DNA of 38,471 nt from Deltaproteobacteria bacterium. Lineage in GTDB: Bacteria; Desulfobacterota; Desulfarculia; Adiutricales; JAFDHD01. The position numbers and the translations under genes are program-made. Positions 1 through 6,318 of this stretch are shown here, piece after piece (within the stretch, counting starts at the first letter, position 1; the number at the start of each line of letters is the position of its first letter). The stretch covers positions 1-38,471 of the forward strand of contig JAFDHD010000018.1 in NCBI GenBank assembly GCA_019308995.1, written 5' to 3'. Below the pieces are notes generated by a model, which had not been told where the DNA came from, did no database searches, and saw only the letters and a list, made by a program, of their open reading frames with translations.

Positions 1-81
1 AAAAGGAAAGGTAGACACTAAACGAAAACTTCAATCGAGAAGAAAATAGCTCTATTTACAAATACTTACAACCTGACAGCC

Positions 82-483
82 TTATGGCCTTCTTACGGAA
101 CATCCGTTAAAAATGGTTACTCCCTTGGATTGAAGTTCGCTTATTAATCTTTTTAAACCTTGTATCTCGCTGTGAGTAAGCCCACCAAACGGTTCGTCTA
201 ATAACAGCAAATAAGGACTTGTCGCCAGAGCACGAGCAATTTCTAATCGCTGTAAGTTACCAATTGGTAAATTGCGAGCTTTCTCATTTATTAATTCACC
301 GAGACCAACGAGACTTAAGCATTCCATCACTCGTTCGTTCATATTTTCATGAACGTCGTCATTGACCAAACAACTCACTTTAACATTTTCATAGAGGGTG
401 TAATTGGGAAATGGGTTAGCAATTTGCCATGTTCTCCCTATTCCCTGGGCAACTATTTTATGCGGTCGAAGACAGAATACCAC
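82..483 (-). pseudogene. ABC transporter ATP-binding protein (LivG-like) fragment
   Basis: The reading frame holds the middle of a branched-chain amino acid type ABC ATPase: PHKIVAQGIGRTWQ followed by a PFPNYTLYENV stretch (Q-loop region), a degenerate signature (LPIGNLQRLEIARAL) and a Walker B with LLLLDEPFGGL. The N-terminal Walker A half is absent; family homology begins only at the fifth or sixth residue (about 465). Homology also stops after GVTIF near 108, where the family continues with the H-loop. No partner permease or binding protein lies nearby. I read it as a non-functional remnant broken at both ends, in sequence more AT-rich than the rest of the window. The first residues (MVFC) come from the flanking hairpin DNA. 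Confidence 0.75.
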
Positions 484-640
484 GGGTTTACCCGTGGATG
501 AATGAGTCCTTCCAAATATTATCGCGAGGATACGACGTGATAATGTTTGGTCAACTCCGATCGGAGTTGCCGGCTTTAGCCGGGGGAATCTATCTGCAAA
601 TATGGTTTTGGGGGTTCTGTCGTTTTTAGCCGACAGATCA
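476..640. mobile_element. Hairpin-rich stretch resembling an IS200/IS605 element end (remnant)
   Basis: Four hairpins lie in 160 bases: CCACGGGTTTACCCGTGG at 480-497, the perfect palindrome CAACTCCGATCGGAGTTG at 552-569, CCGGCTTTAGCCGG at 570-583, and a 7-bp stem TCTGTCG/CGACAGA at 616-637. Two share short TTTA-type loops, as is common at IS200/IS605 right ends that overlap TnpB guide RNA. No tnpA or tnpB frame is present. The stretch abuts the point where the ABC ATPase fragment loses homology, which fits an insertion followed by decay. The family assignment is by appearance only. Confidence 0.35.
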
Positions 641-794
641 TGAGCCTACCTTGCATGTCAGGTGTGAGTCTTCTGCTGAAGCCGAAGGTCTTTTCCCAAA
701 TTAAAGTATTCAATATAATAAAAATTACCTTTTATTACAATAACTTTCATTTAATTCCTAGAATTAACTTTAACTTTTATTTCAACCGAAAAAT

Positions 795-806
795 GAGCGT
801 ATGCTC
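795..806. promoter_or_regulatory. Candidate operator, upstream copy
   Basis: GAGCGTATGCTC is a near-perfect inverted repeat 10 bases upstream of the -35 hexamer of the DUF134 gene. With flanks it reads ATGAGCGTATGCTCGAAA and matches the second copy at 851-862. It is a probable binding site for the adjacent DUF134 helix-turn-helix protein; that link is inferred. Confidence 0.5.
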
Positions 807-816
807 GAAATAATCC

Positions 817-847
817 TTGACAATAAGACAAAGAAGATTATTATATT
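817..847 (+). promoter_or_regulatory. Sigma-70-type promoter of the DUF134/Mrp operon
   Basis: TTGACA at 817-822 is a perfect -35. The AT-rich stretch TTATATT at 841-847 offers a -10 at 18-19 bases spacing. The promoter is bracketed by the two palindromes at 795-806 and 851-862, a layout typical of repression or autoregulation. Confidence 0.6.
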
Positions 848-850
848 AAT

Positions 851-862
851 GAGCATAGGCTC
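851..862. promoter_or_regulatory. Candidate operator, downstream copy
   Basis: GAGCATAGGCTC, the second copy of the GAGCxTAxGCTC palindrome, lies just after the -10 region. Its centre is 56 bases from the first copy. A protein bound here would overlap the transcription start. Confidence 0.5.
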
Positions 863-883
863 AAAAAGGAAAAAAGGATATTA

Positions 884-1246
884 ATGCCTCGTCCGCCGAA
901 ATACCGTTTCATCCAGGCCTTGCCTGACATAACCTTCTTCAAGCCGCATCGGGTTCCTATGAGAATGCTTGAAGAGGTTGTTCTGCCTGTGGAGGGTTTC
1001 GAGGCCCTCCGTCTTGTCGAAATCGAGGGCCTGGACCAGGACCAGGCTTCAGAGAGAATGAAGGTCTCCAGGCAAACCTTTGGCCGTATTCTTTCTGCAG
1101 CTCGTAAGACCCTGGCCCAGGCAGTGGTCCAGGGCATGGCCCTGCGGATTGAAGGCGGCCATTATGAGATCAGTGAGGAGGATCGCCGGAGGATTACTAA
1201 CCGGCCAGAATGGCCTATGGTTTCCGAAACCATAAAATCAGAATAA
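884..1246 (+). CDS. DUF134 (UPF0251) family DNA-binding protein
   Basis: The 120-residue protein begins MPRPPKYR and carries the family's conserved block (VEGFEALRLVEIEGLDQDQASERMKVSRQTFGRIL), which is a sigma-70 region 4-like helix-turn-helix at about residues 40-80. The family usually sits beside NifX-like and Mrp/ParA genes in anaerobes, and does so here: the mrp gene starts 10 bases downstream. Length fits the family. A GGA-containing ribosome site precedes ATG 884. The paired palindromes at its promoter suggest that it regulates its own operon; this is inference from position. Confidence 0.88.
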   Translation: MPRPPKYRFIQALPDITFFKPHRVPMRMLEEVVLPVEGFEALRLVEIEGLDQDQASERMKVSRQTFGRILSAARKTLAQAVVQGMALRIEGGHYEISEEDRRRITNRPEWPMVSETIKSE

Positions 1247-1256
1247 GGAAGGAAAA

Positions 1257-2072
1257 ATGACGGAAAAAGTACAGCAAATAAACCCAACTCCAGACCGAGA
1301 GAAGGAAAGGGAGCATCAGGACGAAGAAATTAAAAGTACCCTTGGTCGGATCAGGAATAAGGTCCTGGTCATGAGCGGCAAGGGAGGCGTGGGCAAAAGC
1401 ACCGTGGCCGTGAATCTGGCTATCAATCTGGCTGAAAAAGGCTATAAAGTCGGGCTGATGGATGTTGACCTCCATGGCCCGAGTGTGCCCCGGATCATGG
1501 GGCTGAATGCTACGTTTCCAGGCGGTGACAAGCCTCGCCCCATACCTTATTCACCTAATCTTGCCGTTATTTCCATTGAGCCTCTGCTCCCAGACAAAGA
1601 TAAATCAGTCATCTGGCGTGGGCCGCTTAAGATCGGCGTCATTCGTCAATTTATTTCCGACATTGAGTGGGATGAGCTGGATTACCTGGTTATAGACAGC
1701 CCACCCGGGACCGGGGACGAGCCCCTGACCGTGGCTCAGACCATCCCCGATGCCATGGCCCTTCTGGTCACAACGCCGCAAGAGGTGGCCCTGGCCGATG
1801 TGCGCAAGTCCATAGATTTCTGCCGCCAGGTCAACATGCCCATCCTGGGTGTTGTGGAGAATATGAGCGGGATGACCTGCCCTCATTGTGGTGGGCATAT
1901 TGAATTTTTCAAGACCGGCGGCGGTCAGAGTATGGCAGAGAGTTTCGGAGTTACATTTTTAGGACGAATTCCGTTTGATCCCGAAGTAGTCGAAGCCTCG
2001 GAGCATGGCCGCCCATTTAGCGAACCGTACAAGGAAATGACAGACGCGGTCGTGGCTCGGGTTGAAATATAA
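1257..2072 (+). CDS. Mrp/NBP35-type P-loop ATPase (iron-sulfur carrier family)
   Basis: The 271-residue protein has a deviant Walker A GKGGVGKST at 41-49, the switch region DVDLHGPS near 70, the DSPPGTGDE Walker B-like loop near 148, and the CPHC pair at 208-211 that Mrp/NBP35 proteins use to hold a bridging Fe-S cluster at the dimer interface. The N-terminal 30 residues are charged and lack the extra ferredoxin-like Cys cluster of eukaryotic NBP35. The close family parallel is the Mrp-like subunit of the Desulfovibrio orange protein complex (DVU2109). It is second in the operon, with a good AAGGAAGG site upstream. Its exact client is unknown. Confidence 0.9.
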   Translation: MTEKVQQINPTPDREKEREHQDEEIKSTLGRIRNKVLVMSGKGGVGKSTVAVNLAINLAEKGYKVGLMDVDLHGPSVPRIMGLNATFPGGDKPRPIPYSPNLAVISIEPLLPDKDKSVIWRGPLKIGVIRQFISDIEWDELDYLVIDSPPGTGDEPLTVAQTIPDAMALLVTTPQEVALADVRKSIDFCRQVNMPILGVVENMSGMTCPHCGGHIEFFKTGGGQSMAESFGVTFLGRIPFDPEVVEASEHGRPFSEPYKEMTDAVVARVEI

Positions 2073-2102
2073 CATACAACTGAACTTCAGGAGGAGTTAC
2101 AA

Positions 2103-2471
2103 ATGGCTAAAATAGCTGTTGCCTGCCAGGGTCAGACCCTGGATGATCAGGTTGATCCCAGGTTTGGCCGGGCGCCAAATTTTTTGATCGTTGACCTTGA
2201 AACCCTTGAGTTCGAGGTAATGGACAATTCATCAATAGACACCGTGGCCCAGGGCGCGGGGATTCAATCTGCACAAGCCATGGCCAATGCAGGCGTGGAA
2301 GCGGTGCTGAGCGGCTTTGTCGGCCCTAGAGCCTATCAGGCTTTGAACGCTGCTAACATCAAGATGGGTCAGGGTCTGGAAGGAGTTACCGTGCGTGAAG
2401 CCGTTACTCGCTATAAGGCGGGTCATGTTGAAATAGCGAGTCAGCCCAGTCGGGAGGGACACTGGAGATGA
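2103..2471 (+). CDS. NifX/NafY/ORP-like dinitrogenase iron-molybdenum cofactor domain protein
   Basis: The 122-residue single-domain protein has the family N-terminus (KIAVACQGQTLDDQVDPRFGRAPNFLIVD) and the later block GIQSAQAMANAGVEAVLSG. Members bind metal-sulfur cofactors such as FeMo-co precursors; the Desulfovibrio orange protein binds a Mo-Cu-S cluster. No nitrogenase genes are visible, so an ORP-type role is more likely than nitrogen fixation. It has an AGGAGGAG ribosome site, and its stop overlaps the next start (ATGA), so translation is coupled to the first MinD-type ATPase. Confidence 0.87.
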   Translation: MAKIAVACQGQTLDDQVDPRFGRAPNFLIVDLETLEFEVMDNSSIDTVAQGAGIQSAQAMANAGVEAVLSGFVGPRAYQALNAANIKMGQGLEGVTVREAVTRYKAGHVEIASQPSREGHWR

Positions 2472-3331
2472 TTATCGCCATTGCCAGTGGCAAGGGAGGC
2501 ACTGGTAAGACTACTGTGGCCGCTGCCTTGGTCAAGGTCTGGGACAGGCCTGTTCAGGCCGTTGATCTGGACGTGGAGGAGCCAAACCTTGCGCTTTACC
2601 TCAAGCCGGAGCTAACCGGGCGAGAGATTTCCATGATGGAAATACCTTTGGCTGATCAGGACAAATGCACCGCCTGCGGGGCTTGTTCCGAGATTTGCCA
2701 GTTTAAGGCCATTTCTGTGTTGGGAGAGTATATCCTGACCTTCCCTGAAATGTGCCATGGCTGCGGCGGCTGCCTGGCGGTCTGTCCGGAAGGTGCGTTA
2801 AGCCCGGATACCAGGGAGCTGGGAGAGGTTTTGTGGGGCTGGGCCGGTGAGATTGATTTTCTTATGGGCCGCCTTAGGGTTGGGGAGGCCATGAGTCCGC
2901 CTTTGATGCGAGCGGCCAAGAAGCGCCTTGATTCATCCAGGGATGTGATCATTGACGCTCCGCCGGGCGTGAGTTGTCCGGCTGTAAACGCGGTCAAAGA
3001 CACGGACGTCATTGTTCTGGTTACTGAACCGACACCGTTTGGATTTTACGATCTGAAGCTGGCCCGGGAAGCCTTTACTCCGATCGGTGCGCCCATGGGG
3101 GTTGTTATCAACCGGACCGGGATTGGAGATAAAGGCGTTTATGATTACTGCCATGCCACCGGGCTGCCCATCCTGTTGGAGATTCCCTATGATCGTCAGG
3201 TGGCGGAAGCATACTCCCGGGGTGAGGTCATAGTTGATGCCCTGCCCGAGTATCAAAATATGTTCCTTGAACTAAGCTCTCGGATTCGCGACTTAGCCGA
3301 CAGAAGGATGAAGGAGGCCCGCTATGCCTGA
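2468..3331 (+). CDS. MinD/ParA-family ATPase with inserted 2x[4Fe-4S] ferredoxin domain (first copy)
   Basis: The 287-residue protein opens with the deviant Walker A GKGGTGKTT (9-17) and carries an inserted bacterial ferredoxin domain with eight cysteines at 67, 70, 73, 77 and 96, 99, 102, 106, the classic two-cluster spacing. The ATPase fold resumes with DAPPGVSCPA and ends in the MinD-like C-terminus. Such proteins occur as a tandem pair in the orange protein complex of Desulfovibrio (DVU2103/DVU2104). It starts on the ATGA overlap with the upstream NifX-like gene and its end overlaps the second copy by 8 bases, so the pair is probably co-translated and heteromeric. Confidence 0.9.
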   Translation: MIIAIASGKGGTGKTTVAAALVKVWDRPVQAVDLDVEEPNLALYLKPELTGREISMMEIPLADQDKCTACGACSEICQFKAISVLGEYILTFPEMCHGCGGCLAVCPEGALSPDTRELGEVLWGWAGEIDFLMGRLRVGEAMSPPLMRAAKKRLDSSRDVIIDAPPGVSCPAVNAVKDTDVIVLVTEPTPFGFYDLKLAREAFTPIGAPMGVVINRTGIGDKGVYDYCHATGLPILLEIPYDRQVAEAYSRGEVIVDALPEYQNMFLELSSRIRDLADRRMKEARYA

Positions 3332-4208
3332 AATCACCATACTCAGCGGTAAAGGAGGCACGGGAAAGACGTCCCTGACAGCGGCCTTTGCTCATCTGGC
3401 CTCGAACCATATCCTTTGCGACTTAGATGTGGACGCCCCGGACCTGCACCTCATTTTAAAGCCTGAAAACGAGTACCTTGAGGAATTTTTTTCCGGCCAT
3501 GAAGCGATCATTGATCAGACTTTATGCACCGGCTGCGGCGAATGTATTGAACGATGTCACTTTGATGCGATTAAAGAGACCCCAGATGGGCTGGTAGTGG
3601 ACCAGCTTGCCTGCGAGGGGTGCAAGGTCTGTGTCCATTTCTGCCCAGCCGATGCGATCGAGTTTCCTATGCGGCGCTGCGGGCAGTGGTATTTATCCAA
3701 AACCAGGTTTGGTCCCCTGGTGCATGCCCAGCTCTTTCCCGGTGAGGAGAACTCCGGGCTCCTGGTTTCATTGCTTCGCCAGCAGGCGCGCGGTATGGCC
3801 GAGAAAGAAGGTTATGATTTGATCCTGTCTGACGGCGCCCCTGGCATTGGGTGTCCGGTTATCAGCTCTTTGAGTGGAACCGATCTGGCAGTGATCGTGA
3901 CCGAGCCAACCCCTTCAGGCACTCATGACCTGGACCGCGTGGTGGACCTCTGTGAGCACTTTAAAATTCCGGTTGCGGTTATCATCAATAAATACGATAT
4001 TAACCTCGATCAGGTTCGTACCATTGAAAATTTCTGCCAGGATCATCACCTGAATCTGGTCGGTAAGCTGCCTTATGACCATGCCTTTACCGAAGCCATG
4101 GTTCAGGTACAGACGATAACAGAGTATCAGGCAAGCGGCCTGGCAGATGAGGTCAGAAAGATCTGGACGCGCGTCGAAACGTTAGCCCGCTTAAAAAAGG
4201 CAGCTTGA
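3324..4208 (+). CDS. MinD/ParA-family ATPase with inserted 2x[4Fe-4S] ferredoxin domain (second copy)
   Basis: The 294-residue paralogue of the preceding gene has Walker A GKGGTGKTS near the start, and cysteines at 68, 71, 74, 78 and 97, 100, 103, 107 for two [4Fe-4S] clusters. A DGAPGIGCPV loop follows, then the GTHDLDR and INKYD motifs usual for this subgroup. The two copies are clearly diverged, which fits a fixed heterodimer rather than a recent duplication. The 8-base overlap with its neighbour supports coupled translation. Likely role: ATP-driven electron or cluster transfer to the NifX/ORP-like partner (inferred from the Desulfovibrio complex). Confidence 0.9.
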   Translation: MPEITILSGKGGTGKTSLTAAFAHLASNHILCDLDVDAPDLHLILKPENEYLEEFFSGHEAIIDQTLCTGCGECIERCHFDAIKETPDGLVVDQLACEGCKVCVHFCPADAIEFPMRRCGQWYLSKTRFGPLVHAQLFPGEENSGLLVSLLRQQARGMAEKEGYDLILSDGAPGIGCPVISSLSGTDLAVIVTEPTPSGTHDLDRVVDLCEHFKIPVAVIINKYDINLDQVRTIENFCQDHHLNLVGKLPYDHAFTEAMVQVQTITEYQASGLADEVRKIWTRVETLARLKKAA

Positions 4209-4237
4209 GATTAAAATAAAATATGGAGGTATCAACG

Positions 4238-4570
4238 ATGAAGATTGCAATTCCTTTAGCCGATGGGCGGCTGACACTCCATTTCGGTCATGCAAACCAA
4301 TTTGCAATTATTAATGTGGAAGATCAGGAAGTAACAGATAAGGAACTTTCTTCTCCGCCAGCTCATGAACCCGGGGCGCTCCCGCGTTGGCTACATGAAT
4401 TAGGGGTGGACATCATCATTGCCGGAGGCATGGGCCAGAGAGCCGTTCAACTTTTCCAGCAGAACAACATCAAGGTCGTCACCGGCGCTCCAAATCTGGG
4501 TCCTGAGGAACTGGTTCAGCAATATCTCTCAGATGCTTTGATCATCGGAGACAATGTCTGTGACCATTGA
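4238..4570 (+). CDS. NifX/ORP-like dinitrogenase iron-molybdenum cofactor domain protein, second copy
   Basis: The 110-residue protein starts MKIAIPLADGRLTLHFGHA, with the conserved HFGHA signature followed by the GVDIIIAGGMGQRAV block. I chose ATG 4238 because GGAGG at 4225-4229 lies 8 bases upstream; an earlier in-frame ATG at 4223 overlaps that ribosome site and is unlikely. It closes the ORP-type operon. Relative to the copy at 2103 it keeps the family core but differs throughout, so the two may hold different cofactors or act as carrier and acceptor. Confidence 0.88.
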   Translation: MKIAIPLADGRLTLHFGHANQFAIINVEDQEVTDKELSSPPAHEPGALPRWLHELGVDIIIAGGMGQRAVQLFQQNNIKVVTGAPNLGPEELVQQYLSDALIIGDNVCDH

Positions 4571-4701
4571 TGTTGAGTTTTAGAGTGCTATAGGGCAGAG
4601 GCCCCGTGCTCCTAAATATTTGCATTAATGATCAGGGTTGCACCAGGTTAGCTGGCAGGAAGCCGATTAATCAGGCGTAATCCTTTTAAGAATATTCCCG
4701 C

Positions 4702-6318
4702 TTATTTAAGTTTAGATTTTCTGGTCCAGCGAACCATGACCAAGGTCTGGAGGGTTGATAGAACCAGGAAATGAATGATCCAGGCCGGCCAGCCAAAGAT
4801 CAGGCTGGCTGGCTTGCCCCAGCGCCACCAGTCTATGGCCAGGACAAAAATAGCCGCAAAGGCCCAGGTATAGGGCGAGAAGAGAAAGGCCTTGGGCCAG
4901 GCAAGAGGCTGGCCTTTTAAAAGGCGTTCGGCTCCGGCCACCAGGAGATAACTGCCAAAGGTTAAAACTAAGATAGGCACTACCGATAGAAACCCCCATG
5001 TAGGCAGGTGGCCGAAAAAGGCGAGAAGAAGGGCTCCTTCTCCTACGAGGATGGAAACGATCCCTCCCGTACTTGAGCGCCAGCTAGGATATAATCCAAA
5101 GAGAACAGTCGGAAATAGAACGGCCAGCCCGGTAAACGTCTGCTGCGCGATAGTTAAAATGGTTCCGGGTGGACGGATGGCCAGGCCCAGTCCAGCCAGG
5201 GCCAGAATAACGACAAAAACTCTTGCCGCCACCCCGTTTGGAGTCTCACTTTTTTTAAAAAGAGGATAGAGATCCTGGGAAAAGATCGAGGATAGAGTGA
5301 GCAGCTGGGAGTCCATGGTAGACATCAAGGCAGCCAGCCCGCAAGCTATGACAAGGGCGCCCAGGATCGGGATGTCCAGGCCAGCGGCAAGTAATGGCAG
5401 GATGCGGTCCGCTTCTTTTCCAGTCAATCCTGGATGGTTCAATCGGCCCAGGACGCCAATAGTCACCGGGAGGATAAAGACGATTGAACATACAAAAGGA
5501 TAGGCCAGCATGGTTCGCCGGATGGTTTGATTATCACGCGCCGCCAGGAAACGCTGGAAGAGCTGTGGGAACATGGGGTCGCAGAAGAACCACAGGAAGA
5601 TAAAAGAAAACCAGATGGCTGGCACGTAGCGGCTCTGACCGCCGGGCCGTGAAAATAAATCCGGGTACTGGGTCATCAGCTTTCGGCCAGCGGTGGTTAA
5701 GCCTCCAGCCTGATTGGCGATCAGGATCAAGGCCAGCAGCAGCACGGTGAGCATAATCAGTCCTTGAAGAGCATCCGTTCGGGCCACAGCTTTGAGGCCT
5801 CCTCTGAGGGTGTAGATGGTAATGACGGCGGTGACCAGAGCCGCACCCCAGAGATAATCCAGGCCTAAAAGTTCCTGAAGGGCATAACCGGCAGCAATGG
5901 GCTGGAGGGCAAGGTAAGGTATGGTAAAGATGATCAGGACTATGGCTACCAGGGTGGACACGCCCCGGCTGTCATAGGCCGCTCTGACCAGGTCCGGCGG
6001 AGTTAGTGCTCCAGAGGATTGCCCTAGTTCCCGCGCTCGGCGGCCGATGACCCAGAAGGTTATGGCCATGAATCCGGTGCCAAAGCCGATAATAGGATAG
6101 AAGGCGTAACCGTCCCTGTAACCGGCGCCGGAACAGCCGAACACGGTGAAGGCCGAGAAGTTGGTCGCGGCCATGGTTGCCAAGAAGATTATCGGACTTA
6201 AAGATCGGCCGGCCAAGAAGTAAGACTCGGCTGAATCTCTCCACCGAGTTCGGGCCCACCATCCAATCAAAAACAGCCCCAGGATATAAAGAGTCAGCAC
6301 GAGAATTTTGGTGAACAT
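4702..6318 (-). CDS. Sodium:solute symporter family (SSS) transporter
   Basis: The roughly 538-residue, highly hydrophobic protein has about 13 predicted membrane helices and the SSS pattern: an N-terminal W-A-R-x-R-W-R-D-S-A-x-x-Y-F-L-A-G-R segment followed by LATMAATNFSAFTVFG, then GGLKAVARTDALQG, and later AALMSTMDSQLLTLSSIFSQDLYP, which includes the conserved sodium-site serine region. Substrate cannot be told. Three in-frame ATGs exist; I prefer 6318 because GGAG lies 6 bases upstream of it, whereas the 6336 start lacks such a site. It appears monocistronic, with an 11-bp hairpin just upstream. Confidence 0.9.
   Translation of the reverse strand: MFTKILVLTLYILGLFLIGWWARTRWRDSAESYFLAGRSLSPIIFLATMAATNFSAFTVFGCSGAGYRDGYAFYPIIGFGTGFMAITFWVIGRRARELGQSSGALTPPDLVRAAYDSRGVSTLVAIVLIIFTIPYLALQPIAAGYALQELLGLDYLWGAALVTAVITIYTLRGGLKAVARTDALQGLIMLTVLLLALILIANQAGGLTTAGRKLMTQYPDLFSRPGGQSRYVPAIWFSFIFLWFFCDPMFPQLFQRFLAARDNQTIRRTMLAYPFVCSIVFILPVTIGVLGRLNHPGLTGKEADRILPLLAAGLDIPILGALVIACGLAALMSTMDSQLLTLSSIFSQDLYPLFKKSETPNGVAARVFVVILALAGLGLAIRPPGTILTIAQQTFTGLAVLFPTVLFGLYPSWRSSTGGIVSILVGEGALLLAFFGHLPTWGFLSVVPILVLTFGSYLLVAGAERLLKGQPLAWPKAFLFSPYTWAFAAIFVLAIDWWRWGKPASLIFGWPAWIIHFLVLSTLQTLVMVRWTRKSKLK

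Follow-up and report, generated by a model that had tools for sequence, protein, structure and literature searches.

DUF134 proteins very probably bind as dimers to palindromes in their own promoters and locally repress their own Mrp/ORP/NifX-type operons, as judged from the patterns described below. The sites, their architecture, their conservation, and their covariation with the recognition helix can be read directly from the sequences. We describe these features for one DUF134 operon near the start of the window, which is the whole 38,471-nucleotide stretch of DNA that was analysed, and for DUF134 genes from other genomes.

Two palindromes bracket the promoter of a DUF134 operon

The features of the locus are as follows.

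794-807: putative operator 1 (upstream), TGAGCGTATGCTCG, with its core at 795-806 and its centre 16.5 bp 5' of the first TTGACA base
817-822, plus strand: -35 box, TTGACA
839-844, plus strand: -10 box, TATTAT, after a 16-bp spacer
850-863: putative operator 2 (downstream), TGAGCATAGGCTCA, a 14-mer with perfect arms
874-878, plus strand: probable ribosome-binding site, AAGGA, from reading the sequence
884-1246, plus strand: DUF134 protein, 120 aa (PF02001, 77.8 bits; curated cut-off, 27)
1257-2072, plus strand: Mrp/NBP35-type ATPase, matching the P-loop half of MrpORP
2103-2471, plus strand: NifX/ORP-type protein (PF02579)
2468-3331, plus strand: MinD-like ATPase with two 4Fe-4S motifs
3324-4208, plus strand: second MinD-like ATPase with 4Fe-4S motifs
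4223-4570, plus strand: NifX/ORP-type protein, matching the ORP half of MrpORP

Re-reading the sequence bore out an earlier note on this DNA, which had described two palindromes around a TTGACA promoter. The palindromes GAGCGTATGCTC (795-806) and GAGCATAGGCTC (851-862) are present, their centres are 56 bp apart as that note had stated, and the promoter between them is near consensus, with 11 of 12 consensus bases in its two boxes (beginning at 817 and 839). Given where the -10 box lies, transcription is expected to start within operator 2. The DUF134 gene and the five genes downstream all lie on the same strand, in the order DUF134-Mrp-NifX-MinD-MinD-ORP. The two halves of MrpORP (ATPase at 1257-2072 and ORP domain at 4223-4570) are thus separate genes in the window. 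A similar operon order (DUF134, NifX-type, ATPase, ATPase, MrpORP) is found in Peptoclostridium (locus L291), where MrpORP is one gene.

Two further observations concern the DNA 5' of this promoter. A 133-aa ABC-transporter ATPase fragment (PF00005) lies on the minus strand at 82-483, near the contig start, and looks truncated. Short perfect inverted repeats are clustered at 480-583 (CCACGGGTTTACCCGTGG at 480-497, CAACTCCGATCGGAGTTG at 552-569, and CCGGCTTTAGCCGG at 570-583); they have no Rfam match and could, as a guess, be the remnant of a mobile-element end.

Palindromes recur upstream of other DUF134 genes

The Pfam family PF02001 was detected in 21 of 60 relatives and, among 297 genomes sampled from the phylum, in 113 (109 above the cut-off). 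Seven truncated or stop-containing places above the cut-off and seven places below it were set aside, and further loci were taken as the best 80 of 526 matches in named genome contigs. This gave 235 distinct DUF134 genes, 229 of them with sufficient upstream DNA; dropping rows at least 70% identical across the last 60 bp left 194 non-redundant genes. At the thresholds used, no DUF134 relatives were found in phage records or viral contigs.

Among the 229 upstream regions, paired palindromes 48-60 bp apart that score at least 18 of 20 occur in 13.1%, compared with 0.04% of shuffled sequences. The corresponding values are 23.1% versus 1.7% at a score of at least 16 and 66% versus 53% at a score of at least 12. 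Perfect palindromes with 5-bp arms and a gap of 4 are located less than 70 bp from the start in 30% of cases, compared with 10% of shuffles. The remaining even gaps between 0 and 12 bp are also enriched (19-27% versus 6-10%) and odd gaps hardly so, as expected from dyads that have more than five pairs or paired centres.

These controls bear on whether the palindromes are chance occurrences or hairpins of a leader RNA, a reading that we regard as extremely improbable. Four-base arms are short, and exact GAGCNTANGCTC is found at four places in the 3.78-Mb genome compared with three for a control pattern, so the motif per se is not enriched genome-wide. Within the window, however, there are two exact copies where shuffling gives a mean of 0.05 (100 shuffles, none with two). 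When up to two mismatches are allowed, the window holds 27 matches versus a shuffle mean of 16, and one shuffle in 100 reached 27. What is unusual is the occurrence of two copies less than 70 bp apart at one promoter. The excess of high-scoring pairs over shuffles likewise argues against chance. In addition, operator 1 lies 5' of the -35 box, outside any transcript made from this promoter. A search of window positions 600-1000 for terminator-like hairpins found none, and positions 1-6000 have no Rfam match.

Site arms vary with residues of the recognition helix

The recognition helix of the window protein is S62-R-Q-T-F-G-R68 (SRQTFGR). A structure prediction for this protein (mean pLDDT 84.8) gives a helix-turn-helix (HTH) with helices at residues 52-58 and 63-83. 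We defined helix classes by residues x and y of SRxTFyR, which are residues 64 and 67 and fall at the beginning of the last HTH helix in the predicted model. All 256 four-base arms were then scored for each class. The resulting map pairs x,y with arms as follows: Q,G with GAGC; P,S with GAAC; H,G with GCTC; P,H with GAAT; and both A,C and P,C with GAAA.

At a score of at least 9/10, the best arm was GAGC in 26/79 QG genes (7 for the runner-up arm), GCTC in 16/20 HG genes (runner-up 3), GAAC in 14/16 PS genes (runner-up 3), GAGC in 9/15 PG genes (runner-up 5), and GAAT in 9/9 PH genes (runner-up 3). The small classes, which are weak alone, gave GAGC in 4/8 AG genes (runner-up 3) and GAAA in 3/5 AC and 2/3 PC genes (runner-up 1 in each). 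An arm-free search for dyads agrees for the main classes: among the commonest types listed, it finds GAAT in 9/9 PH genes, GCTC in 6/7 HG genes, and GAAC on both arms in 5/6 PS genes. For QG, GAGC is on at least one arm in 16 of the 22 genes that have a dyad.

The earlier note had proposed the palindrome pair as the target of DUF134, an idea that absence of the motif before other DUF134 genes would count against. Among the 157 non-redundant genes whose helix class is covered, 85 have an own-class site that scores at least 9/10 and lies within 75 bp of the start; the arm map came for the most part from the same genes on which it was then scored. The proposal therefore survives this comparison, and sites of the appropriate class precede many DUF134 genes. 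The literal GAGC..GCTC form is limited to some helix classes, and two classes gave no motif: for SRGTVQR (17 genes) and SRPTVTR (11 genes), no arm in the 256-arm scan occurred in more than one gene, and GAGC-like sites at 8/10 were seen in three SRGTVQR genes (L024, L026, and L148). Of 957 upstream regions of other open reading frames (ORFs) from the same loci, 14 have a 9/10 match to one or more of the five site types. At 8/10, own-class sites rise to 109/157, and GAGC alone is found in 37/957 controls.

Of all 194 genes, 88 have a site at 9/10 (12 of these closely behind another ORF) and 106 lack one of their own class or, for uncovered classes, of any of the five types. Thirty-five of the latter are closely behind another ORF and therefore may have no promoter of their own; the other 71 are not. 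Many DUF134 genes have a single site rather than a pair.

The residue after y also tracks the arms within the QG class. GAGC at 8/10 is found in 0/5 first-gene members with N at this position (SRQTFGN), compared with 35/47 with R. There are 11 N genes, several of which are nearly identical to one another, and by eye 10 show TTGGC or TTAGC together with a CATATGC or CATTTGC centre. Scoring TGGC/TAGC arms more loosely separates the groups poorly (5/5 N versus 22/47 R). A few sites are off class, namely GAAA at a QG gene of the N subclass (L046), GAAC at a PG gene (L217), and GCTC at one FA-helix gene.

Covariation was also traced on a tree of 89 site-bearing genes, built without the helix and leaving out tied site types. 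In this set, S or T (versus G) at y agrees with GAAC in 46/47 genes, and H (versus Q, P, or A) at x agrees with GCTC in 51/51. On the tree there are 4 and 6 state changes in the helix traits and 5 and 6 in the site traits, and two PS genes (L178 and L152) are placed within a GAGC clade, apart from most other PS genes. Because there are only 2 and 1 independent pairs on well-supported branches, a tree-based sign test is not significant.

Paralogues in one genome carry different sites

The second DUF134 gene of the window genome (L001, 1498-1869) has a promoter bracketed in the same way by different palindromes, in the layout GAACATATGTTC, TTGACA, TATGTT, GAACAGATGTTC. The centres are 53 bp apart (56 in the window), and the distance from the operator 1 centre to TTGACA is 16.5 bp, identical to that in the window. 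Its recognition helix is SRPTFSR, compared with SRQTFGR in the window protein. Across the gene set there are 35 paralogue pairs whose predicted arms differ, of which 17 could be scored and 18 could not; among the 17, both sites were as predicted in 14, three were ties, and none was wrong. The cleanest pair, in genome G138, combines SRPTFSR with TGAACATATGTTCA and SRPTFGR with TGAGCATATGCTCA.

Closely linked DUF134 genes, one long and one short, were seen at several loci (L028, L029, L030, L013/L033, L144, L089, L090, L092, L093, and L094). They mostly differ in operator type and so form natural pairs, and the long member carries a NifX-type domain fusion where tested.

An out-of-sample set comprised 12 loci from plasmid records of Bacteroidota, Bacillota, and Gammaproteobacteria. 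Two genes share the helix SRPTLSR: the Phocaeicola gene (L289) has TGAACATTTGTTCA, in agreement with prediction, and the Parabacteroides gene (L299) has TGAGCATTTGCTCA, which breaks the rule. L290 and six gammaproteobacterial genes that are related to one another (L293, L295-L298, and L300) have N in the helix and, by eye, TTAGC/ATAGC...CCAA-like sites resembling those of the N subclass, although these are degenerate in L296-L298. Three Bacillota genes with an ARxTVQ helix (L291, L292, and L294) carry TTGACATATGCC where the -35 box lies, which makes their putative operator overlap that box directly; TTGACATATGCC is absent from the 80 bp upstream of four main-set ARTTVQ genes.

Some plasmid loci have further features. 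CATATG-centred upstream sites occur two per gene, with a spacing of 29 bp in L293, L295, and L300 and of 23 bp in L298. In these same four loci, from enterobacterial and Aeromonas plasmids, DUF134 adjoins NifB/NifX-type genes, and the neighbourhoods of L293 and L300 also include a PaaI thioesterase and Dps.

Site placement points to local repression

In the redundant 229-gene set, from which all spacings and offsets were counted, 104 genes have a site at 9/10, and 95 of these have TTGAC. Relative to the first TTGAC base, site centres cluster at -16.5 (28 sites), +17.5 (14), +23.5 (7), and +35.5/36.5 (30); the window's operator 1 thus has the most frequent upstream offset. The bracket is found in 43 genes with a modal spacing of 53 bp (16/43) and a range of 49-57, which puts the window's 56 at the long end. 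In another 23 genes, the centre of a site falls 8-24 bp past the first TTGAC base, in or near the spacer, and there is no downstream site. In several spacer-site genes, the right half-site GCTTATAAT deviates by one base from the palindrome and thereby completes a TATAAT box. A single-operator design such as TTGACATATTATGAGCATATGCTTATAAT, in which one deviating base of a half-site makes up the -10 box, is seen in L037, L051, L052, L166, L177, L202, and L208.

Autorepression is the likeliest outcome of this arrangement because operator 1, just 5' of the -35 box, and operator 2, at the expected start, would both hinder RNA polymerase. We consider it unlikely that DUF134 binds these sites and instead activates the operon through recruitment of polymerase by the upstream site. 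The fixed offset of that site from the -35 box would suit recruitment, but the downstream site is expected to lie over the start, the 23 spacer-region sites are positioned to block polymerase, and the window promoter is near consensus.

Two further observations favour action at the DUF134 promoter itself. The PH-class site TGAATATATATTCA has a single copy in eight of nine genomes of the class and two in the ninth, and all nine have a copy at the DUF134 gene. These genomes were picked for carrying the class, and the informative part is that the site is absent elsewhere, apart from the extra copy in the ninth genome, which is inside a permease-like ORF. In the window genome, the two GAGCNTANGCTC copies outside the window are both within ORFs (311 aa, L003; 260 aa, L004).

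It is very unlikely that an unlinked regulator binds the palindromes and that DUF134 is merely its target gene. Co-location by itself cannot identify the binder, but the site type shifts with the DUF134 helix, even between paralogues of one genome, and the stray exact copies just described, in the window genome and in the nine PH-class genomes, are all inside ORFs.

A wider regulon in the window genome was considered and rejected: extra TGAACNNNNGTTCA/TGAGCNNANGCTCA sites (L245, L274, L284, and L287) are all in ORFs of at least 100 aa, in a check that covered this genome only and set aside C61:16703, C73:12922, and C118:6628. Matches away from DUF134 in the other 17 and the other 3 genomes were likewise set aside, and DUF134 may have a wider regulon in those genomes.

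Comparison with known regulators

The closest relative with a solved structure was Bacillus subtilis DeoR (SorC family; PDB 7bhy/8r7y), whose HTH aligns to DUF134 profile positions 39-76 (E 0.00074). In a Foldseek search, DeoR supplied the top four matches (E 0.06-0.18), and no match reached E ≤0.001. DeoR has the helix SRPTVSR and a TTGAA half-site, which is what the P,S class of DUF134 would be predicted to bind, and passages of the DeoR structural study give the operator half as 5'-ATTGAACAAAATTTCAAT (PMC11229326). In the low-resolution structure described there, R39 contacts the bases of T14 and G4, and R34 contacts the base of T12 (PMC11229326). The construct, in which residue 2 follows six tag residues, and the alignment lead us to infer that in DeoR S33-R34-P-T-V-S-R39, R34 matches DUF134 R63 and R39 matches R68. 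It fits this matching that G4, the partner of R39, is the G of ATTGAA and that R68 is replaced by N in the TTGGC-type subclass.

The DeoR operator, as the same passages present it, overlaps the DeoR promoter, as in DUF134. DeoR is described as a tetramer on a 39-bp operator, with half-operators unbound in a column test (PMC11229326). Unlike DeoR, most DUF134 sites found are gap-4 palindromes, and the DUF134 context is one of iron-sulfur genes. DeoR has a SorC effector domain, whereas none was found in the 120-aa window protein; Pfam gives only DUF134 and a below-cut-off sigma region 4 match, with no C-terminal sugar-phosphate binding domain.

That match (Sigma70_r4_2, 22.8 bits; cut-off, 25.7) reflects a weak HTH similarity of DUF134 to sigma-70 region 4 and PhyR. 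Sigma region 2 was absent from the window protein at E 0.001, and DUF134 sites are palindromic, whereas sigma region 4 recognises the -35 element. As in local autoregulatory HTH repressors, the palindromes are at the gene's own promoter and are conserved in relatives, though not in all.

The orp operons of Desulfovibrio vulgaris, which encode MrpORP and Orp proteins, share Mrp/ORP-type gene content with the window operon. Their regulation is described as involving sigma54 and the activator DVU2106 (PMC3897727, in part), whereas the window operon has a sigma70-type promoter and DUF134. Sigma54-type regulation of the window operon was dropped because promoter type and regulator differ.

A two-residue code recovered from local regulation is an already known kind of result. 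In the LacI family, as summarised in the corresponding report, a pair of helix residues correlates with a pair of operator bases, as deduced from autoregulation, with convergence on the tree (Camas 2010, PMC2978694). DUF134 is a different family, and one of its classes swaps the arms (GAGC to GCTC). Published binding sites for DUF134 were not found among the titles and abstract openings returned by a literature search.

Iron-sulfur gene context

Each of the six long DUF134 proteins that were scanned has PF02579 (Nitro_FeMo-Co) fused at its C terminus. A NifX-type, MinD/4Fe-4S, or Mrp neighbour, or a DUF134 protein of fusion length, was counted for 26/61 QG, 12/14 PS, 14/14 HG, 8/13 PG, and 7/20 SRGTVQ-type genes; these are rough counts, restricted to loci with 1500 bp downstream, in which fusions were called by length and the own domain of a fused gene may count as a neighbour. 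A metallocluster is a plausible, if tentative, signal because long DUF134 proteins carry the Nitro_FeMo-Co domain and the corresponding Di-Nase domain of MrpORP binds a 3Fe-4S cluster, according to passages of its description (PMC6345978).

Proposed mechanism and significance

Binding, the dimeric state, repression, and the signal form the inferred part of the following model. DUF134 would be a small HTH transcription factor whose dimers bind a palindrome of 14-18 bp with the general form TTATGNNC-ATAT-GNNCATAA, and it would act mainly at its own promoter. One dimer site would be just 5' of the -35 box and the other on the expected transcription start. When both are filled, RNA polymerase would be blocked and the DUF134-Mrp-NifX-MinD-MinD-ORP operon repressed. 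Residues x and y of SRxTFyR, together with the residue after y, go with the arm sequence. Derepression may respond to iron-sulfur or metallocluster status through a NifX/ORP-type domain, either encoded downstream or fused to DUF134.

On balance, we favour a broader reading in which DUF134 proteins are widespread metallocluster-linked autorepressors whose x, y, and following residue (R or N) would set the arms, so that single changes could switch the site and paralogues would be insulated. A change from Q to H would then go with swapped arms, GAGC to GCTC, and insulation would correspond to the different arms apparently used by tandem and unlinked paralogues of one cell.

If so, a domain of unknown function gains a testable job and candidate target sites, and DUF134 becomes linked to iron-sulfur/ORP-type operons in more than one phylum. 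The family would also offer natural regulator-operator pairs for learning how one HTH shifts specificity, and the window genome, with two paralogues that have different sites, is suited to a direct swap.
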